A stretch of DNA of 64,000 nt, taken from positions 248,001-312,000 of the forward strand of contig SCMY01000006.1 of NCBI GenBank assembly GCA_005502805.1, in the 5' to 3' direction. Made by a program: the position numbers and the translations under genes. Positions within the stretch are counted from its first letter, which is position 1, and each line of letters opens with the position of its first letter. Source of the stretch: Rhizobiales bacterium 2SD. Its GTDB lineage: Bacteria > Pseudomonadota > Alphaproteobacteria > Rhizobiales > Beijerinckiaceae. The notes under the pieces were generated by a model, which ran no database searches, had not been told where the DNA came from, and was given only the letters and a program-made list of their open reading frames with translations. Of the stretch, positions 25,157 to 43,203 are shown one piece after another.

Positions 25157-26308
25157 TCAGAGCGCTGCGGCGTAGAACTCGAGATAGCGGCGCGTGACCT
25201 CGTGCCAGGAATAGGATGCGAGGTCGGAGAGGCGCGGGCGCGTATTGCCGGGATAGTGGACGAGGTCGGCATGAGCCTGTTCGACCGCCGTTGCAGCCTC
25301 TTCCGCATCGGCGAAGTCGACCGTGCGAACGACCGGGAACTTGCCGGCGAGGCTGGCGAAGGCGGCATTGGGCTGGACGATCGGCACCAGACCGGCGCTC
25401 ATCGCCTCGACCAAAGCAAGGCCGAAGCCCTCGAACTCGGAGGCCGAGACGAAGAGCGAGGCGTGGCTCATCACTTGCCTGGCCGCGGCATCGTCGAGGC
25501 CGAGATGCAGCGTGACGTTCTGCCCCATGCCGGCGTCTGCTATTGCCTTGCGCAGTGCTTCTTCCGTCCAGTCCGAGGCGACGCCCAGCATGTCGAGCTG
25601 CCAGGACGGCTCGCGCCGCGCCAGCGCCGCCATCGTTGCGATCAGCCGGTCCGGTCGCTTGTTCTTGGAGAAGCGCCCGATGCTGACCAGGCGCCGTTGC
25701 GGATCGGGGCTGGAGGCGCCGGCGAACTTGTCGAGGTCGACGCCGTTCTCGATCACCCGGACCTTGCCCGGCGCCAATCGCTCGAACATGCGGGCATCGT
25801 TGGTGCTGCAGCCGGCGATGCCGCGATAGATCTGCGCGGAGAGCCGGGTCGGGCCGTTGAACCAGATCTTCTTCAGGCCGGCGAAGTCGGCGGTGTGGAA
25901 GAAGCCGCCATGGGTGGTCGCGACCAGCGGCTTGCGATGCAGCAGCCATCCCAGAGCGAGCGCATCGAAGAAGAAGTCGATCGCGTGGACATGGACGAGA
26001 TCGGCGTCGCGCAGGTGCTTGAAGACCTCGGGCGCGAGCGGATAGCGCGTCGAGCCGCGGAACGGGATGCGGGTGATGGGGATGCCGTCGATCACCTCGC
26101 TCGCTGGCAGGACCAACCCCGGCTGGGAGAACAGCCGATCGAGCGTCACCACGGAAGGCCTGAGGCCGAGCGCGGCCTGTGCCCGGCAGAGATTGGCGAC
26201 GACGTCTTCCAGCCCGCCGCGATTGGGCAGGAACTGGCGCACGACATGGACAATGCGCGTGCCGGCCGGGACGGCGGGCGTGGCGCGATGGGAGAAGGGG
26301 GCGGTCAC
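25157..26308 (-). CDS. Glycosyltransferase family 4
   Basis: 383 aa from a GTG at 26308, chosen because GGGAGG lies 7 bases upstream and the GTGA overlaps the GH5 stop; longer frames run into the GH5 gene. GT-B fold: the N-terminal acceptor domain begins RIVHVVRQFLPNRGGLEDVV, and the C-terminal donor-binding domain has LVSIGRFSKNKRPDRLI and the EX7E motif EFEGFGLALVE. It is a retaining sugar transferase acting at the cytoplasmic face on a lipid-linked exopolysaccharide intermediate. It is the last gene of a five-gene operon (31713 to 25157) linked throughout by 4-bp overlaps. Confidence 0.92.
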   Translation of the reverse strand: MTAPFSHRATPAVPAGTRIVHVVRQFLPNRGGLEDVVANLCRAQAALGLRPSVVTLDRLFSQPGLVLPASEVIDGIPITRIPFRGSTRYPLAPEVFKHLRDADLVHVHAIDFFFDALALGWLLHRKPLVATTHGGFFHTADFAGLKKIWFNGPTRLSAQIYRGIAGCSTNDARMFERLAPGKVRVIENGVDLDKFAGASSPDPQRRLVSIGRFSKNKRPDRLIATMAALARREPSWQLDMLGVASDWTEEALRKAIADAGMGQNVTLHLGLDDAAARQVMSHASLFVSASEFEGFGLALVEAMSAGLVPIVQPNAAFASLAGKFPVVRTVDFADAEEAATAVEQAHADLVHYPGNTRPRLSDLASYSWHEVTRRYLEFYAAAL

Positions 26309-27333
26309 GGTTTGGCCTCCCGGCCGCAAATGGCGCTCAGCCGCTTTGTCTTCAAGCGTTCGAGCAGCACCTTCATCTGCGGGCGCTCGCCGGCTTTGGT
26401 CGGCTCGAGGTTGAAGATGTAGTCCGCCGGCCACCAGGGCCCGGCGCCCCAGGCGGTCCAGCCGAGCCACTGCTGCGGATGAGCATCGACTTTCGCCGCC
26501 ATCTGCCTGAGGGCGGTGAGGCATTCCGGCTTGTTCGACGCGGCGAACTCGCCGAGGAAGCCGCGGCGGCCGTTGGCCTTGAGCCAGGCGGTGACGTCGT
26601 CGATCGCCTTGAGCGCATTGGCTGCAGCCGAGCATTCGGCGGCGCGGCCGGAATAGTCGGCGTCGAGATATTGGTGGAAATCGTAGGCATAGCGGTCGAG
26701 CGGATCGACCACGCCCATAAGATCGCGGCCATTGTTGCCGACCGGAAGATCGGAGGTCCAGCTATGGGCGCCGCCGAAGGCCGTGCCGGTGACCAGCAGG
26801 AGCTGCTTGGCGCCGGCCTTGCGGATCGCGGCGATGGCGCCGTTCTGGATCCTGGCCCAGTTCGCGCTGGTGATGTCGTAGGGCTCGTTCATCAGCGAGA
26901 AGACGAGCTTGGGCCGATCGCGATAATGCTCGGCGAGCCGGCGCCAGACATCGGCGAGCGCCTCGGCCGGGAGTTCCTTCGAGCCGAGCTGCTTCTTGGC
27001 GTAATAGCCGTAATTGTGCAGGTCGATGATGGCGATAAGCCCGGCCTCGTTGATCCGGCGCACTGTCTGGTCGAGATAGGCCAGCTCCATGATGTCGAGC
27101 CCGCCATTGAGCTGCGGCTGGATGCGCTCCCAGCGGAAGGGCAGGCGGATGGCGCTCGCGCCGAGCGTGCCGAGGCGCTGGATCGCGGCTTCGCCGGGAT
27201 AGGTGTAGTCGGTATCGACCTTGCCGGGTGTATCGCCGAACTCGGCGCCAGACAGGTTGACGCCGCGCAGACATGTCTCCGCCTGCGCCGGCAAGGCGGC
27301 GAGCAGCGCCAAGACGAGCGCGGCCAGCCTCAT
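26305..27333 (-). CDS. Secreted glycoside hydrolase family 5 (cellulase-type) glycanase
   Basis: 342 aa from the ATG at 27333, which begins a clear signal peptide (MRLAALVLALLAALPAQA) and overlaps the upstream stop as ATGA. The GH5 (beta/alpha)8 barrel shows RLPFRWERIQP, IDLHNYG, the acid/base in SLMNEPYD (Glu150) and the nucleophile in FLGEFAAS (Glu262), so both catalytic residues are present. It would cut beta-linked glucan or mannan in the periplasm or outside. In exopolysaccharide loci such enzymes trim or release the polymer. Confidence 0.92.
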   Translation of the reverse strand: MRLAALVLALLAALPAQAETCLRGVNLSGAEFGDTPGKVDTDYTYPGEAAIQRLGTLGASAIRLPFRWERIQPQLNGGLDIMELAYLDQTVRRINEAGLIAIIDLHNYGYYAKKQLGSKELPAEALADVWRRLAEHYRDRPKLVFSLMNEPYDITSANWARIQNGAIAAIRKAGAKQLLLVTGTAFGGAHSWTSDLPVGNNGRDLMGVVDPLDRYAYDFHQYLDADYSGRAAECSAAANALKAIDDVTAWLKANGRRGFLGEFAASNKPECLTALRQMAAKVDAHPQQWLGWTAWGAGPWWPADYIFNLEPTKAGERPQMKVLLERLKTKRLSAICGREAKP

Positions 27334-29114
27334 GGCGCAACGATCCGCATGAGCGCATCGAGCAGCCGGCGGCCGGCGGCGAGATGGGTGAAGTTGTGGT
27401 CGGCATCTGCAAGCATGGTCAGCGAGGCGTTCGGGTAGGCGGCAAGGTCCTTGCCGGCTTCGCCGAAATAGGTCTCGAGCTCGGCGAGGCCGACGTCGCC
27501 ATCGGCGTAGAGCAGCGACAATTCGACATTGCGCGCCGCGAGCGTGGCGAAATGACGATGGCACTGGTGGTGGAGCCGGCCATGCTTGGTCAAGCGTCCG
27601 AGCACGGGGGCGAGCTTGACCGAGAGCCGCTTGCGATAGCGGTAGATCAGATAGCGCCCGGCCGGTCCGACGCGGAGCTTGCCAGTGAGCAGGCGGCGCA
27701 GGCCGTCCTTGCGGGCCAAGGTCGCGCCGAGATCGCCGGCGCTGCGATGGGCATAGCGGATCGCATCCTCGACGCTCTCGTCGGGGTCCCAGACGAAGCG
27801 CTCATTGTTGACGATGACGAGGCGGCGGATGCGTTCGTCAACGACGGCGGCATGGAAGGCGGCATAGGCGCCGCTGCAGCGCCCGATCAGGATGGGCGCG
27901 TCGAAGCCGTGTGCCTGCATGGCGTCGATGGCGAGACGGACATCGTCGATCTGCGCCTGCGAATAGAGGATCTCCTCCGGCCCGTCGGCCGCCACCCCGC
28001 TGTCGCCGACGCTGCTGGCGTCGAAGCGTAGCGAGGCCACGCCTCGCTGGGCGAAGGCGCGCGCCTGGCTGACGCTGACCCGGGCCCAGCCGATATGGTA
28101 GTCGCGGCCGGCATTGACGAAGATGATCGGCTCACGTGCCGCCGGCCCCAGCGGCTCGCAGAGCACGCCGAAGAGGCGACCATCCGGCCCGAAGCGGATC
28201 GGCCGCTCGATGAAGCCGTCGCCGAGCAGGCCGGCCGCGGGGCCGGGCGGCTGCGGTGCCCGGATGTCGGCCGGAGCAGAACTGACGGCCGCCGCACGCT
28301 TCGCGATCCAGTCGGCGATGCCGGCGATCGTCGCCTTGGGCGGGCGGGCCGCGGTCGGGTCGGTGGTCAGGGTCTCGTAGCCGTCATAGTCGCGCTGCGT
28401 GACGGCGGCGCCCAGACCGGTGAGCGTCTCGGCAAGAGCAGCATCGCCGCCGTGGCCGGCGCGCGACAGTAGCAGGACCTGTTCGGGCGGCGCCTGCTGG
28501 ATCTCTGCCGTATTGAGCGTCGCGATTGCGGGTAGGCGGCCGGGCGCGATGCGCAGTCCAGCCACGGCGCAGCGGGTGTCGTCGTCCGGGTCGGTGCCGA
28601 TTCCGATCCGGTCGGAGACGATGCGCGTCCAGGCCGAGAGCTCGCGCAGATAGCGCTTTCCGTTGCCGACTGGGGCCATCAGCACGCTCGCTGCGACCGG
28701 AGCGAGTTCCTCCGCAAGCTTGAGCGCCAGCGTACCGCCAAGGCCCTGGCCCAGCAGGACGAGGCGCTCGCAGCCGCTGGCGCGACGCAGCAGGTCCGCG
28801 GCGGTGCGGATGGTCTCGAACCAGTCGTCCAGCCCTTGTACATCGGCGGCTTCGTGGGCGTCGCCCTGGCCGGGATAGTCGAAGCGCAGGCAAGCGATGC
28901 CCTTGTCGGACAGCGCCTGAGCCAGGCTGCGCCAGGTCGCGCGCAGGCAAAGCTCCTCATAGCCGATGGCGCCGAGCATCAGCACCGCGACCGGCGCGCG
29001 GCCGGCATGGAGCATGCCCATGCTGCGGCCGAAGGTCACCGGTGTGCCGTAGGGCGAGGGGGCCGTCGCTGTCTCGCCGGCCGGGTCGATACGGTAGGCT
29101 GCGACTGCCGTCAT
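27330..29114 (-). CDS. Double-domain alpha/beta-hydrolase fold protein of an exopolysaccharide operon
   Basis: 594 aa from the ATG at 29114, which overlaps the flippase stop by 4 bp. Two alpha/beta-hydrolase domains lie in tandem, about 1-280 and 300-590. In the first, the nucleophile elbow reads GQGLG (122-126), with Gly124 where Ser is expected, so it is probably inactive. In the second it reads GRCSG (411-415), placing Cys413 at the nucleophile position, with a likely catalytic His in DADHNFTH near the end. The pattern recalls the exosortase-associated hydrolase pair, here fused. A role in acyl or aminoacyl transfer to, or removal from, the polysaccharide is inference; the elbow residues are seen directly. 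Confidence 0.82.
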   Translation of the reverse strand: MTAVAAYRIDPAGETATAPSPYGTPVTFGRSMGMLHAGRAPVAVLMLGAIGYEELCLRATWRSLAQALSDKGIACLRFDYPGQGDAHEAADVQGLDDWFETIRTAADLLRRASGCERLVLLGQGLGGTLALKLAEELAPVAASVLMAPVGNGKRYLRELSAWTRIVSDRIGIGTDPDDDTRCAVAGLRIAPGRLPAIATLNTAEIQQAPPEQVLLLSRAGHGGDAALAETLTGLGAAVTQRDYDGYETLTTDPTAARPPKATIAGIADWIAKRAAAVSSAPADIRAPQPPGPAAGLLGDGFIERPIRFGPDGRLFGVLCEPLGPAAREPIIFVNAGRDYHIGWARVSVSQARAFAQRGVASLRFDASSVGDSGVAADGPEEILYSQAQIDDVRLAIDAMQAHGFDAPILIGRCSGAYAAFHAAVVDERIRRLVIVNNERFVWDPDESVEDAIRYAHRSAGDLGATLARKDGLRRLLTGKLRVGPAGRYLIYRYRKRLSVKLAPVLGRLTKHGRLHHQCHRHFATLAARNVELSLLYADGDVGLAELETYFGEAGKDLAAYPNASLTMLADADHNFTHLAAGRRLLDALMRIVAP

Positions 29115-30493
29115 CGGCCGGCTCCTTCGCTGGCGCGGCCCGGCGGCAGCGGGTCTGTCTTGTCCTGCGGCGTGCCGCCGAACAGGAAGGGCCGGAAAAA
29201 GGCGGTCGCCATGTTGTCGATCCGCCATTTCTGTTTGATCCAGTACCAGGCGGCGAGGCTCGAGGCGGTGCTGAAGATCAGTCCGGCGATAGCGATGCCC
29301 ATCAGTCCGCCGACACGCGCCAGCCCGTAGAGCAGGCCGAGATAGATGACGAACATGATCGCGCGCGCAATCAGGAAGAAGCGCTCGCCGCCGCCGATCA
29401 TCAGCAGCCAGGAGCCGGGGCCGAAGAAGGCGAGCGAGACCGAGAGCACGCAGAGCGCGGTGAGCACTTCGGCATGCCGCACGAACTCAGGGTTGAACAG
29501 GTGCAGGATGAAGGGCGCGACCACGGCGAGAGCCAGCGCGCCGAGCAGCGAGATGCAGAAGCTCGCGAAGGAGAGCCGCCCGATCAGCAGTTGGGCACCG
29601 GCCGTGTCGGATTTCTGGAAGCGGGCGGCGATCATCGGGATGCCGACCGTGTCGATCGCCGCCAGCGGCAGCAAGAGCAGCATCGAGATCCGCAACGCGA
29701 CGAAATAGAAGCCGGCCTCGTTCAGGCCGAGCAATGCGCCGATCAGGATGGTCTCGAGATAGGCCGAGGCCGAGTTCAGCACATTGTTGGCGATGAAATA
29801 GCCGCTTTCCCGGCGCCATTCGCCATGGGTCTGCGGCGGAACCTGGTCGCGCGCCTTGAGCCAGCCAAGCCCTTCGTCCTGAATGAAGCAGACGCTCTGG
29901 TAGAGTGTGGTCGCGGCGAGCAGGCCGGTGATGATCGCCATCGCGCTCGCGCCGCCGGTCAGCAAGCCGGCGAGTCCGGCACCGGCGATCAGCAGGATCG
30001 AGCTGCCGCGCCAGACGATCTCGCGCGGCACCAGCGACATGTTGATGCGGCCATGGATGCGGAAATAGTTCTGAAGATACTCGCTGAGCGCGAAGATCGC
30101 GGCGAAGACGAAGGCGAGCCAGAGATAGTGATAGGTCGGCGGCAGCCGCTCGGCGAAGAGCCAGAGCGGCAGCGCAGCCGCCAGCAGCACGAAGCAGCCG
30201 AGCGCGAGCCAGCGGGCGTTGACGCCGAGCAGGGCCTGGTTGAGCGGGTGGCCGTTCGCCTCGGCCCGGCGATAATGCTTCACCACGAGGATCTGCTGGC
30301 CGAGGACGGCGATCAGTCCGAGCGCGCTGCCGATCGAGAACAGGAAGACATAGAGGCCGTATTCCGAGGTCGGCAGGAAATGGCTCGCGGCGAGCAGCAC
30401 GAGGAAACTCAGCAGCGTGCTGCTGAAGCGCGACGAGAAGGCCGGCAGGAAGCGGCCAGCTCCGGTCCAAGCCAGCTCCAGCAGCGCCTTCAC
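29111..30493 (-). CDS. Oligosaccharide flippase, Wzx-like (MOP superfamily)
   Basis: 460 aa, very hydrophobic, with about 12-14 membrane segments and the N-terminal pattern RFSSTLLSFLVLLAASHFLPTSEYGLYVFLFSIGSALG typical of polysaccharide exporters (GxY after the first segments). It would flip the lipid-linked repeat unit across the inner membrane for polymerisation. It overlaps the GT4 gene upstream (30490..30493) and the hydrolase gene downstream (29111..29114) by 4 bp. Confidence 0.92.
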   Translation of the reverse strand: MKALLELAWTGAGRFLPAFSSRFSSTLLSFLVLLAASHFLPTSEYGLYVFLFSIGSALGLIAVLGQQILVVKHYRRAEANGHPLNQALLGVNARWLALGCFVLLAAALPLWLFAERLPPTYHYLWLAFVFAAIFALSEYLQNYFRIHGRINMSLVPREIVWRGSSILLIAGAGLAGLLTGGASAMAIITGLLAATTLYQSVCFIQDEGLGWLKARDQVPPQTHGEWRRESGYFIANNVLNSASAYLETILIGALLGLNEAGFYFVALRISMLLLLPLAAIDTVGIPMIAARFQKSDTAGAQLLIGRLSFASFCISLLGALALAVVAPFILHLFNPEFVRHAEVLTALCVLSVSLAFFGPGSWLLMIGGGERFFLIARAIMFVIYLGLLYGLARVGGLMGIAIAGLIFSTASSLAAWYWIKQKWRIDNMATAFFRPFLFGGTPQDKTDPLPPGRASEGAGR

Positions 30494-31713
30494 AGCCGCG
30501 CCTCCCGCGCCTGCGGCAAGGCGGATTCGGTCGACTTGCCGACAAGGCCTTCGAAAACGGCGCCGTAGGCGGCGGCAATACGCTCCGGCGCATAGCGGGT
30601 GGCGGCGGCGAGCGCGCCGGCCGATAGCGTGGCGACCAGGGCGCGGTCACTGGCGAAAGCCGAGAGCTGTTCCGCCAGCGCGGCATCGTCGCCCGGCTTG
30701 AACAGGGCTCCGTTGACGCCTGGCTGAATCGTCTCGGGGATGCCACCGGATCTGGCGCCGACGACCGGGACGCCATAGGCGAAGGCTTCGATCACCACTC
30801 GGCCGAAGGGCTCGCGGAACAGCGAGGGAACAGCCAGGACATCGATCTGCGGCAGGAAATCTTCCGGCTTGGTCCAGCCGAGGAAGCGGGTGTTCTGCGC
30901 CGGAAAGCGCTCGGGTAGGGCCTTGGCGTAGTCGCTCTGGCCGGTGCCGGCGATCAGGAACTCGACCGGCTGGCCCGAAAGCCGATGCGCCGCCGCAGCC
31001 AGTGTATCGAGGCCTTTGACCGGGTCATGGACGCCGATGAAGCCGACGCGGAGCGGGCGCTCCGCCGACGCTGTGCGGGGCAGGGCGCCGGGCACTGACG
31101 CGATCGCGCCGGGTATGGCGTGCGTCGATGCGTTCGGGAAATAGCCGTGTTCGGTGTGGCGGCCGATGATGAAGTCGGTCTCGCCGATCACCGCGTCGAC
31201 GAAGCGCGAGTTGAGCTTCTTGCCATAGGAGGTCACCTGGCAGGAGCTGCAGGCGCGCCCGCAATTGTCGCTGCCACGCCACATGCTGCCCTTCCAGCAG
31301 AGCAGGAAGGTGCTGCGCAGGATGTGCGCGACCGGCAGACCGCAGCTCTTCGCTGCTGCCCAGGTCGCGACATTGATGTTCTCGATCGAGTCGGTCAGCA
31401 CGATATCTGGACGCAGGCGCTTGATCTCTCGCCGCATGATGAAGAAGGCGCGCGGATTGAAGTTTTCCAGCGCGTGCCAGATCGCCTTCTTCCAGCCTGG
31501 ACGCGGCAGCCGGTAGTTCCAGTCGATGTTGAGCGAACGCAGACGGTGCACCGGCACGCCGTCGAAGACCTCGTGCCGGTCCTCGCCGGAGACGTTGACG
31601 ACGGTCAGGTCATGACCAGCCGCGCGCAGCAGCTTGGCGACGATCATCGCCGAGATCGGTCCGCCGCCGTCGATGAAGGGCGGGAACGCTGCACAGGCCA
31701 TCAGGATACGCAT
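30490..31713 (-). CDS. Glycosyltransferase family 4 with a cysteine-cluster insertion
   Basis: 407 aa from the ATG at 31713 (MRILMACAAFPPFIDGGGP), the usual GT4 start; a weak GAGGA lies 13 bases upstream, so the start is less certain. The donor domain has VGFIGVHDPVKGLDTL and the EX7E motif EPFGRVVIE. Between the domains (about 150-180) is a cluster LLCWKG...DNCGRACSSCQ, with a CX3CX2C pattern that could bind zinc or an iron-sulfur cluster. It is first in the minus-strand arm of the exopolysaccharide locus, divergent from the GumC-like gene. Confidence 0.9.
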   Translation of the reverse strand: MRILMACAAFPPFIDGGGPISAMIVAKLLRAAGHDLTVVNVSGEDRHEVFDGVPVHRLRSLNIDWNYRLPRPGWKKAIWHALENFNPRAFFIMRREIKRLRPDIVLTDSIENINVATWAAAKSCGLPVAHILRSTFLLCWKGSMWRGSDNCGRACSSCQVTSYGKKLNSRFVDAVIGETDFIIGRHTEHGYFPNASTHAIPGAIASVPGALPRTASAERPLRVGFIGVHDPVKGLDTLAAAAHRLSGQPVEFLIAGTGQSDYAKALPERFPAQNTRFLGWTKPEDFLPQIDVLAVPSLFREPFGRVVIEAFAYGVPVVGARSGGIPETIQPGVNGALFKPGDDAALAEQLSAFASDRALVATLSAGALAAATRYAPERIAAAYGAVFEGLVGKSTESALPQAREARL

Positions 31714-32136
31714 GCTGTCTGGACCGTCCTCGTCACGGCGTGGTTGCTGAGCCGGCCTTTCCAAGGGGCAGGAATACCCGGGACGACCTAAGCAAAGGTT
31801 GGCGTGACCGGGGGATTTCTTCCTGTTGTAAACGAGGCATGAATGGGATCGCGTGGACGATGAGTACGCCGTCGGAAGAGGGCTCCGATGACGTTGATTT
31901 TCGTAAATGTTGAACTATCACCAGCGCGCTCGGGGCGAAATATTTCTTTGAATCGCGTTGGTTGAGTAGTTAATTTTCATGAAGTTGAATGGCTGAATAC
32001 TCCAGTAAAATCACGCTTATTCCGTTACCGGAATGTTAACCACGCACCGGCAGGATGCGCGGTGGAATTCCAGCCGAGTCCGTCGGCGCGTCCAGCCGCG
32101 GATGCGCCGTGCCGGGCCGGATCGAGGAGGCTTGCG
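31714..32136. promoter_or_regulatory. Divergent control region of the exopolysaccharide locus
   Basis: 423 bp between the two arms. About 31880..32040 is AT-rich against a GC-rich background and probably holds both promoters, but no convincing -35/-10 pair stands out. ATTCCG - TTAC - CGGAAT (32019..32034) is a perfect 6+6 inverted repeat near the start of the plus-strand arm and a possible regulator site. The last 75 bases are in frame with the GumC-like gene (possible GTG start at 32062). Confidence 0.55.
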
Positions 32137-34128
32137 GTGTCGGCTGCGTTGGAGGCGGGGGGACGGGAGGACGTGTCGGCGCGAGGCCGTGCCTCCGCCG
32201 CTTTCAGCCTGTCCGAATTGCTCCAGCTACTCCGTCGTCGCCGCCGGCTGGTGATTGCGAGCGCCGGCATATGCCTGTTGTTCGCACTCGCTTATCTCTC
32301 CGTGCAGGTGCCGGTCTATCGCGCGACGGCCGAGCTGCTCGTCGACCCGCAGGCGCTCCAGGTCGTCGGCAAGGACATCGTGCGCACCGACACCTCGGCC
32401 TCGATCGATTTTGCCAATGTCGACAGCCAGTCGCTGGTGATGACCTCCACCGGCGTGCTGCGCCAGGTGATCGACGAGCTCGACCTTGAGAAAGATCCTG
32501 CCTTCGTCCGCCCCCCCGGGCTGATCTCGCGCCTGCTCGGGCGGCTGGTGCAGCCGACACCGGAGCAGCGGCTGGCTCAGGCGGTCGATGCGCTCAAGAA
32601 GGCGATCGTGATCCAGCGCGTCGACAACTCGCTGGTCTTCCGCATCACCGTCTCGCATCCGCAGGCGCAAAAGGCGGCCGACATCGCCAATGCCCTGGCT
32701 CAGGTCTATTTCCGCCAGGGCAATGACGGTCGCCGCGCCGTGGTCGAGCGCGCCAACACGACGCTGATCGATCAGATCTCGGGCTTGAGGACGCAGCTCG
32801 ACACGGCCGAGCGCGCCGTCCAGGCCTTTCGCAGCCAGCACAGCCTGGTCAGCACGGGCGAAGGCGGGCTGATCATCTCGCAGCAGTTGCGTGACCTCTA
32901 CGGCCAGATCAGCCAGGCGGAAGCCGAGTTCGCGCGCCAGCAGGCCCGGCGCGACCAGCTCACCCGATATCAGAACCGCGACCCGCTGTCCGATACGCTG
33001 CCGGAGGCGCTCACCTCATCGGTGGTGACCTCGTTGCGGGGGCAATATGCGCAAAGTGCGCGCGAGGCGGCGAGCCTTGCCCAGACGCTGGCGCCGCAGC
33101 ACCCGCGCCTGATCGAGATCCGGGCCGAGCTTGCCGAGACGCGCCGACTTCTCACTGGAGAGCTGGCCCGTCTGCGGGCCACGGTGCAGGAAGGCTATCG
33201 CCAGGCCGAGGCCAATCTCGCCAATCTCAGGAAGCGCGCGACCGAGCTGACCAGGTCGCAGGAGGTCAGCGGCGCCGCGCAGATCAAGCTGCGCCAGCTC
33301 GAAAGCGAAGCCGAGGCGGTGCGGGTGGTCTACAGCGCCTCGCTGCAGCGCGCCAAGGAGCTGGAGCAGCAGAAGCGGATCGAGACCAACAATTCGCGTA
33401 TGCTCTCGGAGGCGGTGGCGCCGGCCACGCCGACCAAGCCACCGGCTCCGCTCGTGCTCGCCGCCGCGCTGCTCTTCGGCGCCTGCGCTGGCCTCGGCCT
33501 CGCCTATCTCTTGGAATGGCTGCCGACATCGCAGATCATGCCCGCGCGGCTGAAACCTCTGGCGTCGCTGACGCCGGAGGCCGCCGGTCAGGCGATCGGC
33601 GTCGGCACCGTGGTCTCGCTGCCCGCCGCTGTCGCCCGCCGCGAAGACGCGCTGATCCCGGTGACGCGCCTGCTCCAGAAGACGCTCGGCCCTCATCTCC
33701 CGGCTTCGGTGATGATCGCCGGCTCGGTCGACGACGCTACGCAGAAGGCGCTCGCCGAGCATCTCGCCAACAGTTTGGCGGCCCATGGCGAAAGCGTGCT
33801 GCTCTGCCAGGATGGCTCCGGCCGCGACATGAACATCCGCCGTATCGAGCCGTCCGCATCCGCGGCGGCAAGGCCCGGTCGGCGGCGCAACTTCATCATC
33901 ATGCGGCGCACCTCTCCCTCCGACGGCAAGGCGGGTGCACGGCCGGACGCGATCGTGCTCGCCTCGTCCCTGACCGGCGAGACACCGCGCAGTCTGGTCG
34001 ACCAGGCTGCGGCGATCGATCCCGTAGGCGAGCACATCGTCGCACTCGTCGTTCCCGAGGATACGCAAACCGGCGCCCGCGGCCTGGCGTCGCGCTGGCT
34101 GCGCCGTCCTGCACAGGCCGCTGCGTGA
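32137..34128 (+). CDS. GumC/Wzc-like polysaccharide co-polymerase with a degenerate kinase domain
   Basis: 663 aa from the GTG at 32137, chosen for the strong GAGGAGG 6 bases upstream; a GTG at 32062 would add 25 residues. Order: N-terminal membrane segment (LVIASAGICLLFALAYL), Wzz domain (VYRATAELLVDPQ), a long periplasmic coiled coil (about 150-400), second membrane segment (LVLAAALLFGACAGLGLAYL), then a cytoplasmic domain that begins like a tyrosine autokinase (SVMIAGSVDD) but lacks a Walker A GKS/T and a tyrosine tail. It sets chain length and couples polymerisation to export of the exopolysaccharide. The kinase part is probably inactive. Confidence 0.88.
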   Translation: MSAALEAGGREDVSARGRASAAFSLSELLQLLRRRRRLVIASAGICLLFALAYLSVQVPVYRATAELLVDPQALQVVGKDIVRTDTSASIDFANVDSQSLVMTSTGVLRQVIDELDLEKDPAFVRPPGLISRLLGRLVQPTPEQRLAQAVDALKKAIVIQRVDNSLVFRITVSHPQAQKAADIANALAQVYFRQGNDGRRAVVERANTTLIDQISGLRTQLDTAERAVQAFRSQHSLVSTGEGGLIISQQLRDLYGQISQAEAEFARQQARRDQLTRYQNRDPLSDTLPEALTSSVVTSLRGQYAQSAREAASLAQTLAPQHPRLIEIRAELAETRRLLTGELARLRATVQEGYRQAEANLANLRKRATELTRSQEVSGAAQIKLRQLESEAEAVRVVYSASLQRAKELEQQKRIETNNSRMLSEAVAPATPTKPPAPLVLAAALLFGACAGLGLAYLLEWLPTSQIMPARLKPLASLTPEAAGQAIGVGTVVSLPAAVARREDALIPVTRLLQKTLGPHLPASVMIAGSVDDATQKALAEHLANSLAAHGESVLLCQDGSGRDMNIRRIEPSASAAARPGRRRNFIIMRRTSPSDGKAGARPDAIVLASSLTGETPRSLVDQAAAIDPVGEHIVALVVPEDTQTGARGLASRWLRRPAQAAA

Positions 34129-35381
34129 GCGGGCCGGCGGCGATGGCCGGCGGCGCCGACCCGGTCCGCCCGATGCCGACCCTGCCGATTGCGCTGCTGA
34201 TCGGCGCTCTCACCTTCAACATGGCGTTGTGCTTCATCAACACCAACGTCATGGGCATCAACGACACCATGGTGATGGGCTGCGAGGTGGTGCTGGTCGC
34301 GACCGCGCTCTATCTCGGTCTCGGGCGTAACGCGGCGCCCTATCTGCTGTTGGCGATCTTCCTCTCCTACGCCGCCATGCTGATGGCGATGCGCCCGCTG
34401 ATCGATCCCAAGGCAGTGCGCGACTTCCTGATCCCGGTCGCCTTCTATCTGCTCGGCAAGAGCTGCAACGACATACGCCTGGCCGATCGCGCCGCCTTGC
34501 TCTGCGGGATCATCGTCGTTGCGTTCGGCCTGTTCGAGTTCCTCGCCCTCGACGTCTACGTAAGCTATTTCAACATCATCAAATACTATGTCGCGCGCGG
34601 CACGGTGGCGCCGAGCGACGTCAGCAGCCAGACCGGCGCACTTTTCGCCAGCGGCCTGCGGCCGGATTCTCGGACATTGCTGCCCTTTCTCGGGCCGCAC
34701 CGCGCCTCATCGGTCTTCCTCGAGCCGATCTCGACCGGCAATTTCGGCGCGATTCTCTATATCTGGGCCCTCAATCGCCCGGCGATGGCGAAGCGCTGGC
34801 TGACAATGGCCGCCGGCATGACGGCGATCGTGCTCAGCGATTCCCGTTTCGGCGCCAATGTCTGCATCGTTGCGACGGCCGCCTATCTGGTGGCGCCTAT
34901 CACTCCGCGCTTCGTCTGGTTGGCTGCGCCGTTCACCTTGTTGATCGGCTTCGCCGTCTACGGCTTCGTCAGCGCCGAGGTGAACTGGGAGAACAATTTC
35001 GCCGGCCGCATGCTCTGGACGGCACGGCTGATCACCTCGCTTTCGCCCGCTGCGGTCTTCGGCCTGTCGCCGGACAAGCCATTCCTGTCGGATTCCGGCT
35101 ACGCCTATTCGTTGAATCAGATCGGATTGCTCGGCGTCATCGGCTTCTGGAGCCTGTTCATTTTCGCGCCGGAGCGGTCTCCTCGGGCCTGGCGCTTCAA
35201 GGTCTGCGTGGCGACCTATATCTGCCTGCTGATGATCGTCAGCGACTCCGTCTATTCGATCAAGACGGCGGCATTGCTCTGGTTCATGACCGGGGCGAGC
35301 GATGGAGATGCGGAGGGCGAGCCTGCGCCAGCCGATCAGCGCAGCTTAGCCACGGGCTATTCCTCTGCTGCAGCAAGCTGA
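34125..35381 (+). CDS. O-antigen ligase/polymerase-like membrane protein
   Basis: 418 aa from a GTG that overlaps the GumC-like stop (GTGA, 34125..34128); an ATG at 34143 is the alternative. About ten membrane segments are visible, with a larger periplasmic loop in the second half, as in Wzy/WaaL proteins. Family-like patches are LSDSRFG (about 225) and the final YAYSLNQIGLLGVIGF. It probably polymerises or ligates the repeat units exported by the flippase. The class is diverse in sequence, so polymerase versus ligase cannot be settled. Confidence 0.78.
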   Translation: MSGPAAMAGGADPVRPMPTLPIALLIGALTFNMALCFINTNVMGINDTMVMGCEVVLVATALYLGLGRNAAPYLLLAIFLSYAAMLMAMRPLIDPKAVRDFLIPVAFYLLGKSCNDIRLADRAALLCGIIVVAFGLFEFLALDVYVSYFNIIKYYVARGTVAPSDVSSQTGALFASGLRPDSRTLLPFLGPHRASSVFLEPISTGNFGAILYIWALNRPAMAKRWLTMAAGMTAIVLSDSRFGANVCIVATAAYLVAPITPRFVWLAAPFTLLIGFAVYGFVSAEVNWENNFAGRMLWTARLITSLSPAAVFGLSPDKPFLSDSGYAYSLNQIGLLGVIGFWSLFIFAPERSPRAWRFKVCVATYICLLMIVSDSVYSIKTAALLWFMTGASDGDAEGEPAPADQRSLATGYSSAAAS

Positions 35382-35665
35382 ATTCTCCGGAAATCGAGTA
35401 TTCGCGGCAATCCGCCGTTTACCACATCTCCAGACGTCGGCCGGCAGAGCCGGTCTGCCAGTCTTTCGGTGGCCGACGCAAGGTAGCTTTAAATTTTATG
35501 CGTTAGGTCTGACGCAACGAAACAACACGGCGTCAAATCCAACCGTCCCAAGCGTCACAACGGCCAAGCGAGCGCCCAGCGCGAGCCTGTGCTGCCGCGC
35601 GCCGAGGGCGGGCATGGCGTGGCTGCGAGGCGGCGCCGCTCAATCAGACAGGGCAGGACCGAAAG
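35382..35665. promoter_or_regulatory. Gap before the carrier protein operon
   Basis: 284 bp with no gene seen. An AT-rich patch (TTTAAATTTTAT, about 35488..35499) precedes TGCGT...ACGCA (35499..35516), a short inverted repeat. A promoter for the carrier-protein operon is likely here because the gap is long and the following five genes are tightly packed. AGGA precedes the ATG at 35666. Confidence 0.4.
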
Positions 35666-35911
35666 ATGAAGACCAGGATCCGCGAAATCCTCAAGAGCAC
35701 CGGCAAGCTGCCGGTCGATGTCGCCACCCTCGCCGACGAGGCCGATCTCTACAATGCCGGCCTCACCTCCTTCGGCACGGTCGAGCTGATGATGGCGCTC
35801 GAGGAGGCCTTCGAGGTCGAATTCCCGGACAACATGATGAACCGGCGCAACTTCGCCTCGGTCGCGGCGATCGAGAACGCGATCCGCACCATCCAGAGCG
35901 AGCACGTCTGA
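35666..35911 (+). CDS. Acyl carrier protein dedicated to an amino acid:[carrier protein] ligase
   Basis: 81 aa, a four-helix carrier. The 4'-phosphopantetheine serine is Ser35 in NAGLTSFGTVELMMALEE, where TSFG replaces the usual DSLD/DSLG of fatty-acid carriers. The same change is found, as I recall, in the small carriers charged by Bradyrhizobium amino acid:CP ligases. It is followed at once by the flavoprotein gene (TGATG overlap) and then the ligase gene, so it is almost surely their substrate carrier, holding an amino acid as a thioester in the cytoplasm. Confidence 0.93.
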   Translation: MKTRIREILKSTGKLPVDVATLADEADLYNAGLTSFGTVELMMALEEAFEVEFPDNMMNRRNFASVAAIENAIRTIQSEHV

Positions 35912-37146
35912 TGACGACGCTCGCCCGCCTGGCCGAAGCCGGCTACCAGCTCACTGCCGAGGCGCCCGGCGCCAGTGCCGAGGCGCAGAAGGCGATGATC
36001 GCCAAGGCGCGCAAGATCGCCAAGCTCGCGGCCGAGCATGCCGGCGATGTCGACGCAAGGTCGCGCTTTCCGCACGAGGCCTTCGAGGCGCTGAAGCGCG
36101 AGCGTCTGCTCGGGATCATGATCCCGGCCGCCCATGGCGGCGAGGAAGCGAGCCACGCGACCATCGCCGAGATCTGCTCGGTGCTGGCCCAGGCCTGCGC
36201 CTCGACCGGCATGATCTACGCGATGCACCAGATCAAGGCGTCGAGTCTGGTCGTGCATTGCAACGACGATCCCTGGCACGCATCCTTCATGGCGCGCATC
36301 GCCCGCGAGCAGCTGCTGCTCGCCTCGGCCACGACCGAGGGTGGCGGCGTCGGCGGCGACCTGCGCTCCTCGATCTGCGGCGTGGTCCGCGAGGGCGACG
36401 ACTTCACTCTCGACAAGGAAGGCTGCCTGATCTCCTACGGCGCGCAGGCCGACGCCATCCTGATCACCTCGCGGCGCACGCCAGAGGCGCCGCCCTCCGA
36501 TCAGGTCATGTCCGTCCTGACCAAGGACCAGTACACGCTGGAGCGCAGCGCCGCCTGGGACACCATGGGCATGCGCGGCACCTGCTCCGACAATTTCACC
36601 TTCTCGGGCCGTGCCCCGGCCGAGCAGATCATCCCGGTCTCCTTCGCCGAGATCGCGGCGCAGTCGATGCTTCCCAACGCGCATCTGCTCTGGGCCTCGG
36701 TCTGGTACGGCATCGCGGCCGAGGCCGTCGCCCGCGCCGAGGGCTTCGTGCGCAGCGAGGCGCGCAAGCGCCCGGGCTCGACCCCGCCGAGCGCGCTGCG
36801 CCTGGCCGAATTGCTCGCCCGCCTGCAGCAGTTCAAGGCGCTGGTCGTCGCCGGGCTCGATCGCTACGAGCGCGCTCGCGGCGATGCCGACGAGCTCTCC
36901 TCGATGGGCTTCGTCGTGGCGATGAACAGCATCAAGGTCGTCGCCTCGCAAAGCGTCGGCGAGATCGTGATGCAGGCCTTCCTGATCTGCGGCATCCAGG
37001 GCTATCGCAATGACAGCCCGGCAAGCCTGGCGCGCCTGATGCGCGATGCGCTCTCGGCGCCGATCATGATCAACAACGACCGAATCCTCGGCAACACCTC
37101 CAACCTGCTGGCGGTCTACAAGCACGACCCCAGCCTCTCCAGGTGA
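35911..37146 (+). CDS. Acyl-CoA dehydrogenase family flavoprotein, probably acting on an aminoacyl-carrier protein
   Basis: 411 aa from the ATG at 35911, which shares one base with the carrier stop. Domains follow the family: N-terminal helices (about 20-140, [24 protein letters not shown]), a mid beta-domain with the FAD-contacting stretch [16 protein letters not shown] (about 140-155), and a C-terminal helical domain ([18 protein letters not shown], then [12 protein letters not shown]). Homologues such as PltE and RedW oxidise prolyl groups on carrier proteins, so a carrier-bound amino acid is a reasonable substrate here. The catalytic base was not assigned. It lies between the carrier gene and the ligase gene. 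Confidence 0.88.
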
Positions 37147-37150
37147 TCGC

Positions 37151-38071
37151 ATGTGCCAGAACTGCCCCCAGCCGCAGAGCTTCCTCGCGGAACTGATTGA
37201 TACTGGCCTGCTGATCGACACCGGCGTCGACGGGCTCTATGGCCGTAGCGGCCTGTTCGAGGAGGTCATCGCCCGCTTCGACGACCTGATCACCCGCCAT
37301 GGCGGGCAGGACGGCGCCGAGATCGTCCGCTTTCCGCCGGCGATGAGCCGCAAGCATTTCGAGAAGAGCGGCTATCTCAAGAGCTTCCCGCAGCTTGCCG
37401 GCACCGTGCACTCCTTCGCCGGCAACGAGCGCGCCCATGCCGAACTGCTGCACAAGGTGGCTGACGGGGTCGACTGGACCGACGGACAGATCTCGACCGA
37501 GGTCGTGCTGACCCCGGCCGCCTGCTACCCGCTCTACCCGGTCGTCGCCAAGCGCGGCCCGCTCAAGACCGAAGGCGCGCTGTTCGACCTGCAATCCTAC
37601 TGCTTCCGGCACGAGCCCTCGAAGGACCCGGCCCGGATGCAGCTCTTCCGGATGCGCGAATATGTCCGCTTCGGCACGCCCGAGCAGGTCACGGAGTTCC
37701 GCGCGACCTGGCTGGAGCGCGGCCAGGAGATGATGGCCTCGCTCGGCGTACCGCTCAATCTCGACGTCGCCAATGACCCGTTCTTCGGCCGTGCCGGCCG
37801 CATGCTCGCCAACAACCAGCGCGACCAGCGCCTGAAGTTCGAGCTGCTGATCCCGATCGAGAGCGAGGAGAAGCCGACGGCCTGCCTCTCCTTCAACTAC
37901 CATCAGGACCATTTCGGCACGACCTGGGGCATCCAGACCGCCGCCGGCGAGACCGCGCACACCGCCTGCGTCGGCTTCGGCATGGAGCGGGTCGCGCTCG
38001 CTTTGTTCAAGCACCATGGCTACGACGTCGCGCGCTGGCCGGCTTCGGTCCGCAACGTGCTCTGGCCGTGA
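37151..38071 (+). CDS. Amino acid--[acyl-carrier-protein] ligase (class II aaRS-like)
   Basis: 306 aa. It resembles the catalytic core of an unusual seryl-tRNA synthetase without the tRNA-binding arm. The class II motif 2 is [23 protein letters not shown] and motif 3 is GFGMERVAL. The likely zinc ligands are Cys125 (TPAACYPL), Glu170 (RMREYVRF) and Cys273 (HTACVGFG); their spacing matches what I recall for the Bradyrhizobium enzyme. These enzymes adenylate an amino acid, usually glycine or alanine, and load it onto the phosphopantetheine of a small carrier protein, linking aaRS chemistry to non-ribosomal pathways. The carrier is two genes upstream. Confidence 0.95.
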
Positions 38072-39090
38072 GCACGATGACGGCCCAGCAAAAGATCGCC
38101 GCGCCCGCCGGTCTGGCGGGCCGGCTCCTGCCGGTCGATCCGCTCGCCTATGACCGGCATGCCATGCATGCGGGCGAGCGGCATTGGCCGCAGACCAATT
38201 GCTATGCCGATCTCTGGATCGAGATCCTGCATGCGCTGGGCCTGGAGCCGGCGGCGGCCTTCGGCTTCACGATCACGCAGGATTTCGAGGGCGACCAGTT
38301 CACCTTCTTCAAGCCGCCGCTCGACGATCTCGAAGCGCTCTACGGCCTCAGGGTGACCGAGCTGGCGCTCTATGACGATCTGATCGGCCATATCGAGCAG
38401 CAGATCGGGCTCGGCCGCCTCGTCCTGCTCGAACTCGATTCCTTCTACATGCCCGACACCCGCGGCGTCTCCTATCGTGACAGCCACGGCAAGACGACGA
38501 TCGCGGTGAACCGGCTCGACCGCGCCGCCCGCGAGCTCGACTATTTCCACAATGACGGCCTGCATCGCGCCGAAGGCGAGGATTTCGACGGCCTGTTCCG
38601 TTTGCTGCCGGGGCAGATGCGCGAGGACACGCTCTTCCCCTATGCCGAGATGGTGCGCCTGCCGCAGCGTCGGCCGGACGAGGCGGCCCTGCGCGCCACC
38701 GCGCTGAAGCTGCTCGCCCGCCATGTCGCGCGCCGGCCAAGCGACAACCCGGTCGCGGCCTTCCGGGCTGTCGCGACCGCACAGGCCGAGGCGCTGGCCG
38801 AGCGGCCGGGTGCGGCCTTCCACCATTACGCCTTCAACACGCTGCGCCAGCTCGGCGCCAATTTCGAGCTGCTCGCCAGCCATCTCGCCTGGCTCGGCCA
38901 GGGCGTGGATGGACTGGACGCGGCTCGCGACGGTTCGCTTCGTATCGCCGAGGGCGCCAAGGTGGCGCAGTTCCATCTCGCCAGGGCAATGAAGCAGAAG
39001 CGCTTCGAGCGCTTCGACACGACGCTCGCTGGACTCATCACCGAGCACGATCAGGTCAGCGAGGCGCTCGGGCAGCGCTTCCCCGGCTGA
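38068..39090 (+). CDS. DUF1839 family protein
   Basis: 340 aa from a GTG that overlaps the ligase stop by 4 bp. The family has no established function, but is repeatedly found beside amino acid:[carrier protein] ligases. Conserved-looking patches are [27 protein letters not shown] (about 38-64), [27 protein letters not shown] (about 128-147) and YFHNDGLHR. The Cys/His-containing NCYADLW and LDSFYMPD segments resemble the active-site layout of a papain-like or transglutaminase-like acyltransferase, which would suit transfer of the aminoacyl group. That proposal is inference. Confidence 0.9.
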
Positions 39091-39093
39091 GCC

Positions 39094-41577
39094 ATGGCCC
39101 GCATCGTCGCGCGTAGCGCAGAACGGACCCTGCCGCTCGCGGGCTGGTCCTGGCTCGCGATAGCGGCGGATGCCGCCGCGACGCCGGCTGATCTGCCAGA
39201 GACAGGCGACTGGCGGGAAGCCGCGGTGCCCGGCACGGTCGCCGGGACGCTGCGCGCGCTCGGCCAACTCGACGACGCCAGTGCCGAAGCGATCGGCCAG
39301 CAGGATCACTGGTATCGCACGCGATTGACCGAAGCACTGAACGGACGCCTGTGCTTCGAGGGACTGGCGACCGTCACGGAGATCTGGGTTGGCGGCGTCA
39401 AGCAGGCCGACAGTGCCTCTATGTTCGCGCCCGTCGAGTTCGCCGTGAGTTGCCCGGCCGGGACCGAGATCGCGCTGTGCTTCCGCGCACTTGCGCCGAA
39501 GCTGGCTGTGGCCCCACGCCGCTCCCGCTGGCGGCCGGCGATGATCCAGCCCAACGGCCTGCGCTGGTTCCGCACCAGCGCGCTCGGCTCGATGCCGGGC
39601 TGGTGCCCGCCCGGCCTCCCGACTGGGCCTTATCGCCCGGTGTTGCGGATCGAGAGCGAGCAGAATGCGCCGCGGATCGAATCCGTCGATCTGCGCACGA
39701 GCTACGATGGGCAGACAGGCACCGTCGCGCTCAGCCTGAGGCTCGCCGCGAACACGCCGCTGCCGGGTCGCGTCATCATGCGCTGCGCAGGCGGCGAGGC
39801 GGCTTTGCACGCGGATGGCGACAGTCAATTAGCCGGCACATTGTCTCTGCCCGGTATCACGCCCTGGTTCCCGCACACCCATGGCGAGCCGGCGCTGCAC
39901 GATCTCACCCTCACGCTCGATGGTGAGACGATCGATCTCGGCCGCATCGGTTTCCGCTCGCTGGAGGTCGATCGCGGCGAGGACGGCGACGGCTTCGGGC
40001 TGATCGTCAACGGCGTGCCGGTGTTCTGCCGCGGCGCCTGCTGGAGCAATGCCGACGTCGCGACGCTGGCCGGTGGCCGCGCCGCCTACGAGCCCTGGCT
40101 CCGGCTGGCGCGCGAGGCCGGGATGAACATGATCCGCCTGCCCGGCGTGATGACCTATGAGGACGACGCCTTCTTCGCGCTCTGCGACGAACTCGGCATC
40201 ATGGTCTGGCAGGAGATGATGCTGGCCAATTTCGACTATCCGCAGGGCGATGCCGGCTTCCGTGCCGCGATCGCGGCGGAGGCCGAAGCGCTGCTCGGCC
40301 GCACGCAGGGCTCGCCCTGCCTCGCCGTGCTCTGCGGCGGCAGCGAGGTCTTCCAGCAATCGGCGATGCTGGGCGCGCCGCCCGAAGCCTGGTCCGGCCC
40401 CGTCTTCGACGAGGTGCTGCCGGAGGCGGTCGCCCGCTTGCGGCCGGACATCGCCTATGTCCCGAACTCGCCCTCGGGCGGGCCATTGCCCTTTGTTGCC
40501 GACAAGGGCGTGACGCATTATTACGGCGTCGGTGCCTATATGCGCGGCCTCGACGATGCCCGCCGCGCCAATGTCCGCTTCGCCGCCGAGAGCCTTGCCT
40601 TCGCCAATGTTCCGGAGGAGGTGTCGCTGCGCGCCGGCAGGCCGCCGGCGATCACGCATCACCCCGACTGGAAGCGCGCCGTGCCGCGCGATGCCGGTGC
40701 CTCCTGGGATTTCGAGGATGTGCGCGACCACTATCTCGAACGGCTCTATGGGCTTGAACCGGCGCGTCTGCGGCGCGAGGACCCGGAGCGCTATTTCGCT
40801 TTGTCACGCGCGGTCGTCGCCGATGTGATGGAAGAGACCTTCGCCGAATGGCGCCGGCCGGGCTCGCCGACGCGGGGGGCGCTGGTCTGGCTGCTGCAGG
40901 ATCTGCAAGCTGGCGCCGGTTGGGGCGTGATCGCGGCTGATGGCGAGCCGAAATCGGCCTGGCACGGGCTCGCCCGCGCCTTCCGGTCAATCCAGATTGC
41001 GATGACCGATGAGGGCGTCAACGGGCTCGGCCTGCATGTCCTGAACGAGCGGCCACAGCCGTTGGCCGCGACCGTCGAACTGACCTGCTGGCGCGCCGGC
41101 GAGGTCGCCGTGGTGCAGGCGAAACGCGAGGTCGCGCTCGCGCCGCACTCAGCGACGACACTCTCGGCCTTTGACCTGATCGGCCGCTTCTTCGACATCG
41201 CCTATGCCTATCGCTTCGGCCCGCCCGGGCATGACGTGACCTCGGCGGTGCTGCACGATGCCGCGAGCGGCGCGGTGCTGGCCGAGGCTTTCCACTTCCC
41301 GCTTGGGCGCGGCCATGAGCGCCATCATTGTGGGCTCGCCGCACAGCTGGAGCGAGAGGGCGACGACTGGAGCCTCGTGCTCTCGACCCAGCGCTTCGCG
41401 CAATCGGTCGAGATCGTCGATGCCGGCTGGCGGCCGGAGCGGAGCTGGTTCCATCTCGCGCCGGGCGAGCCGCGCCGGGTTCGCCTGCATCGCCGTCCCG
41501 GCACCAGCGGCGAGCCTTCCGGCGCGGTCCGCGCGGTCAACGCGCTCGACCGTGCCGGCTACGCTGCGGGAGCGTAA
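39094..41577 (+). CDS. Glycoside hydrolase family 2 / beta-mannosidase-like protein
   Basis: 827 aa. Layout follows GH2: an N-terminal sugar-binding jelly roll (about 15-190), an immunoglobulin-like domain (about 190-290), and a (beta/alpha)8 barrel from about 300 with MNMIRLPGVMTYEDDAFFALCDELGIMVWQEMM. The acid/base is probably Glu418 in LCGGSEVFQQ (GGSE in place of the usual GNNE) and the nucleophile Glu499 in FAAESLAF. No signal peptide is seen, so it appears cytoplasmic. It is the last gene of the carrier-protein operon and ends 4 bp before the convergent lyase-like gene. Substrate unknown; a mannosyl or related oligosaccharide is likely. Confidence 0.88.
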   Translation: MARIVARSAERTLPLAGWSWLAIAADAAATPADLPETGDWREAAVPGTVAGTLRALGQLDDASAEAIGQQDHWYRTRLTEALNGRLCFEGLATVTEIWVGGVKQADSASMFAPVEFAVSCPAGTEIALCFRALAPKLAVAPRRSRWRPAMIQPNGLRWFRTSALGSMPGWCPPGLPTGPYRPVLRIESEQNAPRIESVDLRTSYDGQTGTVALSLRLAANTPLPGRVIMRCAGGEAALHADGDSQLAGTLSLPGITPWFPHTHGEPALHDLTLTLDGETIDLGRIGFRSLEVDRGEDGDGFGLIVNGVPVFCRGACWSNADVATLAGGRAAYEPWLRLAREAGMNMIRLPGVMTYEDDAFFALCDELGIMVWQEMMLANFDYPQGDAGFRAAIAAEAEALLGRTQGSPCLAVLCGGSEVFQQSAMLGAPPEAWSGPVFDEVLPEAVARLRPDIAYVPNSPSGGPLPFVADKGVTHYYGVGAYMRGLDDARRANVRFAAESLAFANVPEEVSLRAGRPPAITHHPDWKRAVPRDAGASWDFEDVRDHYLERLYGLEPARLRREDPERYFALSRAVVADVMEETFAEWRRPGSPTRGALVWLLQDLQAGAGWGVIAADGEPKSAWHGLARAFRSIQIAMTDEGVNGLGLHVLNERPQPLAATVELTCWRAGEVAVVQAKREVALAPHSATTLSAFDLIGRFFDIAYAYRFGPPGHDVTSAVLHDAASGAVLAEAFHFPLGRGHERHHCGLAAQLEREGDDWSLVLSTQRFAQSVEIVDAGWRPERSWFHLAPGEPRRVRLHRRPGTSGEPSGAVRAVNALDRAGYAAGA

Positions 41578-43036: not shown

Positions 43037-43203
43037 GATCGCTCGTCCTATTCCCGGGCGCACTGCTCGCTGATCCCGTCAATAGAGCGAAGCCGGGAAG
43101 CGGGCAGGGACGCGGCCTCAATTTCACTTCGCGAAACGCAACGCAGGCACCCAGCCGACTTCTGTCATTCGACTAGTTTCATGCCGTCGAACGGACGGTG
43201 CGC

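Follow-up and report, generated by a model that had tools for sequence, protein, structure and literature searches.

Amino acid:[carrier protein] ligases were reported in 2010 to charge carrier proteins with amino acids (as told in PMC2922099), and a review of 2022, in its available part, calls their biological role unknown (PMC9437257). What such a ligase does among exopolysaccharide (EPS) genes is the question raised by a locus of the alphaproteobacterium Rhizobiales bacterium 2SD, situated at positions 25157–41577 of a stretch of 64,000 nucleotides (contig SCMY01000006.1, positions 248,001 to 312,000; termed the window in the following). Two divergent arms fill this region: the minus arm consists of EPS genes, while the plus arm comprises genes for a GumC/Wzz-like protein and a membrane protein, followed by a cassette of five genes for a carrier protein, an acyl-CoA-dehydrogenase-like flavoprotein, the ligase, a DUF1839 protein and a GH2 glycosidase (Table 1). 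This gene content had been described in an earlier note made from the DNA alone, and every gene named there was found in its place. We propose that the cassette provides a carrier-protein-based pathway for the amino-acid decoration of a surface polysaccharide, a reading to which we assign a probability of roughly 0.55. The more specific version is offered tentatively, at somewhat less than even odds: a dedicated system of six proteins, i.e., a class I ligase, a carrier, an atypical flavoprotein, a CcbD-like DUF1839 protein, a GH2 glycosidase and a double hydrolase with a cysteine nucleophile, would attach an oxidised amino acid to an amino sugar within a surface polysaccharide, chiefly in Rhizobiales.

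The cassette is real, well conserved and functionally coherent. It was followed through 126 DUF1839 loci (80 named, 45 further ones and the window) with 123 distinct DUF1839 sequences; loci L237–L241 were left out of the analysis. All five genes are present in 122 of these loci, in constant order and on a single strand, and the genes for carrier, flavoprotein, ligase and GH2 protein each occur in 124. Among the exceptions, L054 and L162 are located at contig ends, L155 is devoid of GH2 and L074 of the ligase. In L074, which stems from Roseibium denhamense, the ligase is missing at 9937–9986, although the locus contains the other four cassette genes as well as that for the double hydrolase. None of the five cassette genes was found in 35 control regions of 20 kb, placed at round coordinates and not at random in 12 DUF1839-positive genomes. 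The share of genomes encoding DUF1839 is 65 of 397 in the order, 16 of 398 in a sample from the phylum and 5 of 385 in a sample from the class. A ligase above cut-off is present in all 65 positive genomes of the order as well as in 23 further genomes that lack DUF1839.

With regard to the transfer step, the DUF1839 protein is predicted to be a carrier-protein-dependent aminoacyltransferase of the CcbD/CtaG/AziU2-U3 type. The protein from the window scores 415 bits against PF08893 (gathering cut-off 22.5). Its AlphaFold2 model, built from 31 sequences (mean predicted local distance difference test, pLDDT, 89.8; predicted template modelling score, pTM, 0.88), yielded 19 Foldseek matches at E ≤ 0.001, all of them chains of AziU2-U3, CtaG or CcbD. 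In VIA-align the model matched CcbD (7yn1) over 289 residues with Z 20.1 at 3.6 Å, AziU2-U3 (8gs1) with Z 18.8 and CtaG (9qvp) with Z 17.3; for this group, Z ranges from 16.6 to 20.1 with 271–292 of the 340 DUF1839 residues aligned, and the next chain, a de novo designed protein, follows at Z 8.7. According to the available part of PMC12945683, CcbD joins proline, supplied on a carrier protein, to an amino sugar in lincosamide biosynthesis via a Cys-His-Glu ping-pong mechanism, in which the cysteine first accepts the proline and then delivers it to a thiooctose at its amino group. The residues binding the sugar include D114 as well as the catalytic H131, and the substrate is contacted across the dimer.

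In DUF1839, C45 is conserved in 125 of 126 sequences, D124 and H140 in all 126 and D151 in 119 (best-scoring copy per locus, 126 of 128 matches; a second piece in L137 and a Cys-less second copy in L159 were dropped). The spacing C45-D124-H140 resembles that of C19-D114-H131 in CcbD when compared by numbering, not by superposition. From the sequences, the triad may be read as Cys-His-Asp, differing from the C(T/S)H triad given in PMC10318531, in which DUF1839 was classed as papain-like and guessed from context to act at the cell wall in acyl-CoA-dependent glycan processing; the part of that paper available does not name CcbD, CtaG or AziU3. As the predicted fold of DUF1839 is CcbD-like, a sugar gains support as the acceptor.

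The likeness to CcbD/LmbD with their carrier and adenylating enzyme comprises stand-alone activation of an amino acid on a small carrier protein and a Cys-His transferase of the same predicted fold, with an amino sugar as the likely acceptor in our case. On the other hand, activation is achieved by a class II aminoacyl-tRNA-synthetase-like ligase in the cassette and by an adenylation domain in the lincosamide system, and the cassette adjoins polysaccharide loci and adds the flavoprotein, GH2 and the double hydrolase.

Outside the order, two genomes belonging to a single genus possess two DUF1839 copies each (L159, 7410–8366 and 12262–13260; L161, 9947–10906, and L162, 112–1113). The copy in the cassette is Cys-less, and the Cys-bearing copy resides elsewhere, in a stretch with double-hydrolase genes and genes resembling those for polysaccharide co-polymerases (PCP); in L159 the further copy is on the strand opposite to the cassette. 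Since CcbD contacts its substrate across the dimer, an active/inactive pair is conceivable by analogy.

The ligase from the window scores 510 bits against NF005479 (curated cut-off 357) and 363 bits against 4h2w, a structure of Bll0957 (PDB 3mey, 4h2w) from the same ligase family. Residues C125, E155 and C273, which we take to be the zinc ligands, are kept in 124 of 124 homologues, and so is S35 of the carrier. In D-alanylation by DltA/DltC, as described in published abstracts, an amino acid on a carrier is likewise destined for a surface polymer; the window carrier, however, stays below the cut-offs of both DltC models. Ligase family and transfer mechanism also differ between the Dlt system and the cassette.

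Two classes of ligases have to be distinguished. In a midpoint-rooted tree of 70 of the 134 ligases, class II forms a clade with support 1.0, and the class I side, as rooted in this way, has a support of 0.19. The ten class II loci examined (L227–L236) all contain the flavoprotein gene, nine contain a divergent carrier gene, and DUF1839, GH2 and the double hydrolase are missing from every one of them; a PCP or Wzx gene is present in the stretch in five. Class II loci recurrently encode, as further partners, a roughly 290-residue protein (6/10; no Pfam match in the three scanned), which is a candidate alternative transferase, a short-chain dehydrogenase (5/10; one scanned) and a protein judged by eye to resemble acyl-CoA ligases (6/10). 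Given that DUF1839 and GH2 are missing from these ten loci, the class II system probably makes something else than the class I system. Compared by eye, Bll0957 agrees with class II at all 13 class-diagnostic positions, whereas the ligase from the window belongs to class I. Deriving the amino acid used in the window from Bll0957 was rejected for this reason. The Agrobacterium ligase reportedly prefers alanine, and Bll0957 is said to prefer glycine.

The flavoprotein matches PF02771 and PF00441 above and PF02770 below cut-off. Judged by its sequence, it is no ordinary dehydrogenase, because both usual catalytic glutamates are missing: in 134 of 134 module flavoproteins, Ile or Val stands where medium-chain-type dehydrogenases presumably have their catalytic Glu; the position presumably used by the isovaleryl type is Ser, Ala, Cys or Thr, and the neighboring Arg is replaced by His. 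In the same alignment, five dehydrogenases from the window's genome retain Glu at one of these two sites; these five were taken from 16 other acyl-CoA-dehydrogenase matches in that genome, nine with a wrong-frame or unclear reading being excluded and two readable ones, L191 with Glu and L187 with Asp in this place, also left out. Classical acyl-CoA dehydrogenation was rejected, as neither usual position offers a base. Neighbors in the PDB are dehydrogenases mixed with DszC, DnmZ and a nitrososynthase. Since the flavoprotein accompanies the ligase in both classes (124 class I loci and all ten of class II), its substrate would most simply be the carrier-bound aminoacyl group. For the same reason, oxidation on the carrier, which the earlier note had considered, is plausible, even though the usual catalytic bases are missing.

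The GH2 protein scores 155 bits against the beta-mannosidase 5n6u over residues 39–639, and both catalytic Glu positions (E418 and E499) are kept in 124 of 124 sequences. By crude hydropathy, neither GH2 nor the other cassette proteins nor the double hydrolase exhibit a signal peptide or membrane segment. The gene for the double hydrolase is present in 24 of 24 DUF1839-positive and in none of 30 DUF1839-negative genomes among 54 hand-picked ones; eleven of the negative genomes carry the other ligase class, and the contrast persists within three genera (g1, g68 and g41). In nine of the 24 genomes, this gene and the cassette are separated by 88 kb or more or are on different contigs. Ten distant double-hydrolase loci of 20 kb each feature GT4 (nine), PCP (seven), Wzx (seven) and GH5 genes (four), and one of them, L221, repeats the EPS set of the window about 0.77 Mb from its cassette (GT4, Wzx, GT4, PCP, Wzy-like, GH5 and double hydrolase). 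Where DUF1839-bearing ligase loci lie away from EPS genes, the accompanying double hydrolase was mostly found among EPS genes elsewhere. The GH2 gene missing from cassette L155 sits beside the double hydrolase at L223 of the same genome.

Proximity to polysaccharide genes was assessed with Pfam models on whole genomes for 52 of the 72 DUF1839-positive genomes; near matches were picked by eye and their coordinates transferred by hand, and the counts are lower bounds. Within 20 kb of DUF1839, Wzz (PF02706) occurs in at least 29 of the 52 genomes (1.31 expected), Wzx (PF01943) in at least 27 (1.40 expected) and either of them in at least 32, with at least one case in nine of eleven families. Hidden Markov models for the neighborhoods detected a polysaccharide gene in the stretch in 77 of 126 loci vs. 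3 of 35 controls, a comparison biased in favor of the loci by models seeded from the neighborhoods themselves. The same bias affects the counts of cassette genes in loci and control regions and the gene counts for the distant double-hydrolase and class II loci. In the survey proposed in the earlier note, ligase loci with DUF1839 are thus close to polysaccharide-export genes far more often than chance, albeit without a listed Wzz or Wzx match nearby in families f28 and f62. The gene order in Agrobacterium is ligase, DUF1839, GH2, double hydrolase and ABC exporter, which fits the numbering Atu2573–2577; the exporter at this locus (L117) is apparently Atu2577. In the available part of PMC9790009, the exporter Atu2577, the UDP-GlcNAc dehydrogenase Atu2582 and glycosyltransferases are treated as one cluster for an uncharacterised glycan, which is said to be required for phenazine tolerance.

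Several observations weigh against decoration of a surface polysaccharide by the cassette. Among the matches listed, f28 (0/5) and f62 (0/3) have neither Wzz nor Wzx in the 20 kb around the cassette, and f24 has one case in seven genomes; two genomes of f62 (G998 and G1069) have no Wzx match. Because of f28 and f62, the cassette must be described as a self-contained unit that does not adjoin EPS genes in every case. In addition, 49 of the 126 loci were without a polysaccharide gene in the stretch examined with the neighborhood models, no gene for the biosynthesis of amino sugars was noticed in the locus of the window, and all genome-level counts are phylogenetically non-independent, the genomes within families being related. 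As for DUF1839, similarity to CcbD was not detectable at sequence level, a further difference from the lincosamide system, with a sequence profile search of the PDB giving three irrelevant matches; BtrH_N (PF14399) was not matched by the protein from the window, for which PF08893 is the sole Pfam match at E 0.001, and was found in 0 of 150 genomes of the order; and the cysteine is lost in cassette L161 and in one of the two L159 copies. The one paper found for DUF1839/PF08893 (PMC10318531) contained no biochemistry, most subscription papers being outside the search, and no amino-acid substituent of such a rhizobial EPS was among the literature matches listed.

It is unlikely, although less so than the alternatives that follow, that the cassette makes a small diffusible aminoacyl-sugar, lincosamide- or mycothiol-like, its adjacency to EPS genes reflecting a response to the same conditions. 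CcbD, AziU2-U3 and CtaG, the close structural relatives of DUF1839, all serve small-molecule pathways, and the self-contained cassette of f28, without a listed Wzz or Wzx match nearby, would suit such a product. This is countered by the double hydrolase, which is present in 24 of 24 genomes and stands mostly among GT4, Wzx and PCP genes even far from the cassette, as well as by the flanking clusters listed, among which no transporter is a constant partner.

Rather less likely still is an ester as the final linkage, with the acyl group ending on a hydroxyl of an EPS sugar, the double hydrolase as the final transferase and DUF1839 making an intermediate. An invariant Cys413 at the nucleophile position of the C-terminal half (84/84), together with conserved Asp and His, would suit acyl transfer; the corresponding position of the N-terminal half is Gly in 61, Arg in 20 and Ser in three of the 84 sequences. 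Within NCBIfam, the double hydrolase comes closest to the exosortase-A-associated hydrolases 1 and 2, with distant similarity below cut-off (TIGR03100, 90.4 vs. 168.45; TIGR03101, 61.2 vs. 202.75). However, the predicted fold (pLDDT 89.4) is a common esterase-like one whose nearest neighbors are ordinary esterases and lipases, and the precedent of CcbD is amide formation. A modified lipid or protein as the product, with an EPS neighborhood that is incidental and due to shared genomic islands, is improbable in view of the counts for Wzz (at least 29/52) and Wzx (at least 27/52) vs. 1.3–1.4 expected, their spread over nine of eleven families and the phylogenetic profile of the double hydrolase, although EF-P, EpmA-like and EpmB-like genes stand near the cassette in 47 of the 126 loci.

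For the decoration of a surface polysaccharide, the following sequence of reactions can be envisaged, in which we infer the amino acid, its oxidation, the acceptor and the linkage. The ligase would adenylate a small amino acid and load it onto the phosphopantetheine of the carrier, as shown biochemically for the family elsewhere. The flavoprotein would then oxidise the carrier-bound aminoacyl group, probably in a monooxygenase- or oxidase-type reaction and not by alpha,beta-desaturation. DUF1839 would take the acyl group onto Cys45 and, in the manner of CcbD, hand it to a sugar amino group, and the apparently cytoplasmic GH2 protein and the double hydrolase with its cysteine nucleophile could trim, proofread or relay the acyl-sugar. 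Judging from the gene content, the modified lipid-linked unit would finally be flipped by Wzx and polymerised under the control of Wzz/GumC. If true, this would be the first physiological role for the tRNA-synthetase-like ligases and a case of lincosamide-type chemistry used in polymer decoration. It would connect activation of the tRNA-synthetase type with amide transfer as in antibiotic pathways and with the surface glycans of bacteria, and might bear on plant association. The ligases would thereby be given a named transferase whose structural precedent has been solved, one further constant partner and a particular class of polymer.

The core of this interpretation is an existing prediction, strengthened here and extended by one component. 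In a note in proof in PMC2922099 (2010), the idea was already laid out with Atu2574 as an amide ligase, the same ligase, carrier, redox enzyme, uncharacterised open reading frame and glycosidase, and the same type of acceptor; in the part available it was based on context only and came without fold evidence, double hydrolase or counts. From the gene order, Atu2574 would be the DUF1839 gene. New here are the match to CcbD, the sixth component and the statistics. The inference in the earlier note that the amino acid is placed on a sugar of the polymer, now backed by the CcbD-like fold of DUF1839 and the EPS association, is therefore a rediscovery, and the interpretation given there is partly supported overall. 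A functional study of the cassette system was not among the literature matches listed for the ligase and the locus tags, most subscription papers being outside the search.

Table 1. Genes of the EPS locus and the adjoining cassette in the window.
Feature	Position	Strand	Basis and remarks
GT4 glycosyltransferase	25157..26308	-	minus arm
GH5 glycosidase with N-terminal hydrophobic segment, probably periplasmic	26305..27333	-	PF00150, hydropathy
Double alpha/beta hydrolase, sixth component by phylogenetic profile	27330..29114	-	C-half Cys413 (GxCSG); N-half mostly without nucleophile
Wzx-type flippase	29111..30493	-	PF01943
GT4 glycosyltransferase	30490..31713	-	minus arm
GumC/Wzz-like chain-length protein	32062..34128	+	PF02706, PF13807; TIGR01005 below its cut-off
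Wzy/ligase-like membrane protein	34125..35381	+	at least 8 hydrophobic segments; no Pfam or NCBIfam match
Carrier protein	35666..35911	+	PF00550; NF005480 above cut-off; phosphopantetheine serine S35
Acyl-CoA-dehydrogenase-like flavoprotein without both classical catalytic Glu	35911..37146	+	
Amino acid:[carrier protein] ligase, class I (DUF1839-linked)	37151..38071	+	NF005479, ligase tree
DUF1839 (PF08893), predicted carrier-protein-dependent aminoacyltransferase, CcbD/CtaG/AziU2-U3 fold; C45, D124, H140, D151	38068..39090	+	
GH2 beta-mannosidase-like glycosidase	39094..41577	+	PF22666; catalytic Glu positions E418, E499 kept

The gene junctions, nearly all of which the earlier note had described as overlapping or nearly touching, are indeed of this kind within each arm: four bases overlap at all joints of the minus arm, at the GumC/polymerase-like joint and at the ligase/DUF1839 joint, carrier and flavoprotein genes overlap by one base, and the two remaining joints of the cassette are gaps of four and three bases. 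The description does not apply to the 284-base gap (35382–35665) between EPS arm and cassette, on account of which the cassette may have its own promoter. Flippase (PF01943) and chain-length protein (PF02706) both score above cut-off, in line with a Wzx/Wzz-type locus; the polymerase candidate is the membrane protein without a family match. An initiating transferase and an outer-membrane exporter had no match in the locus, and the matches of the genome to PF02397 (three) and PF02563 (two) are located on other contigs.

Downstream of GH2, 41582–44708 of the window contains a histidine ammonia-lyase-like gene and a gene with a fumarase domain. As the former was found in three of 125 other loci, both are probably not part of the cassette. 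The 47 loci with EF-P, EpmA-like and EpmB-like genes (L057, L060, L085 and 44 others) are largely from Rhizobiaceae; the one member scanned of each contained EF-P domains, PF00152 and Radical_SAM, respectively. In nine relatives (L042, 5988–7190, and eight similar loci), an oppositely oriented gene separates the cassette from the Wzy-like gene; it is missing in the window and matches Acyl_transf_3 (PF01757) in the single member scanned. The window probably comes from a Bosea genome, since ten of the twelve named loci closest to it in DUF1839 (L040–L051, best-segment identities of 79–95 percent) are named Bosea.

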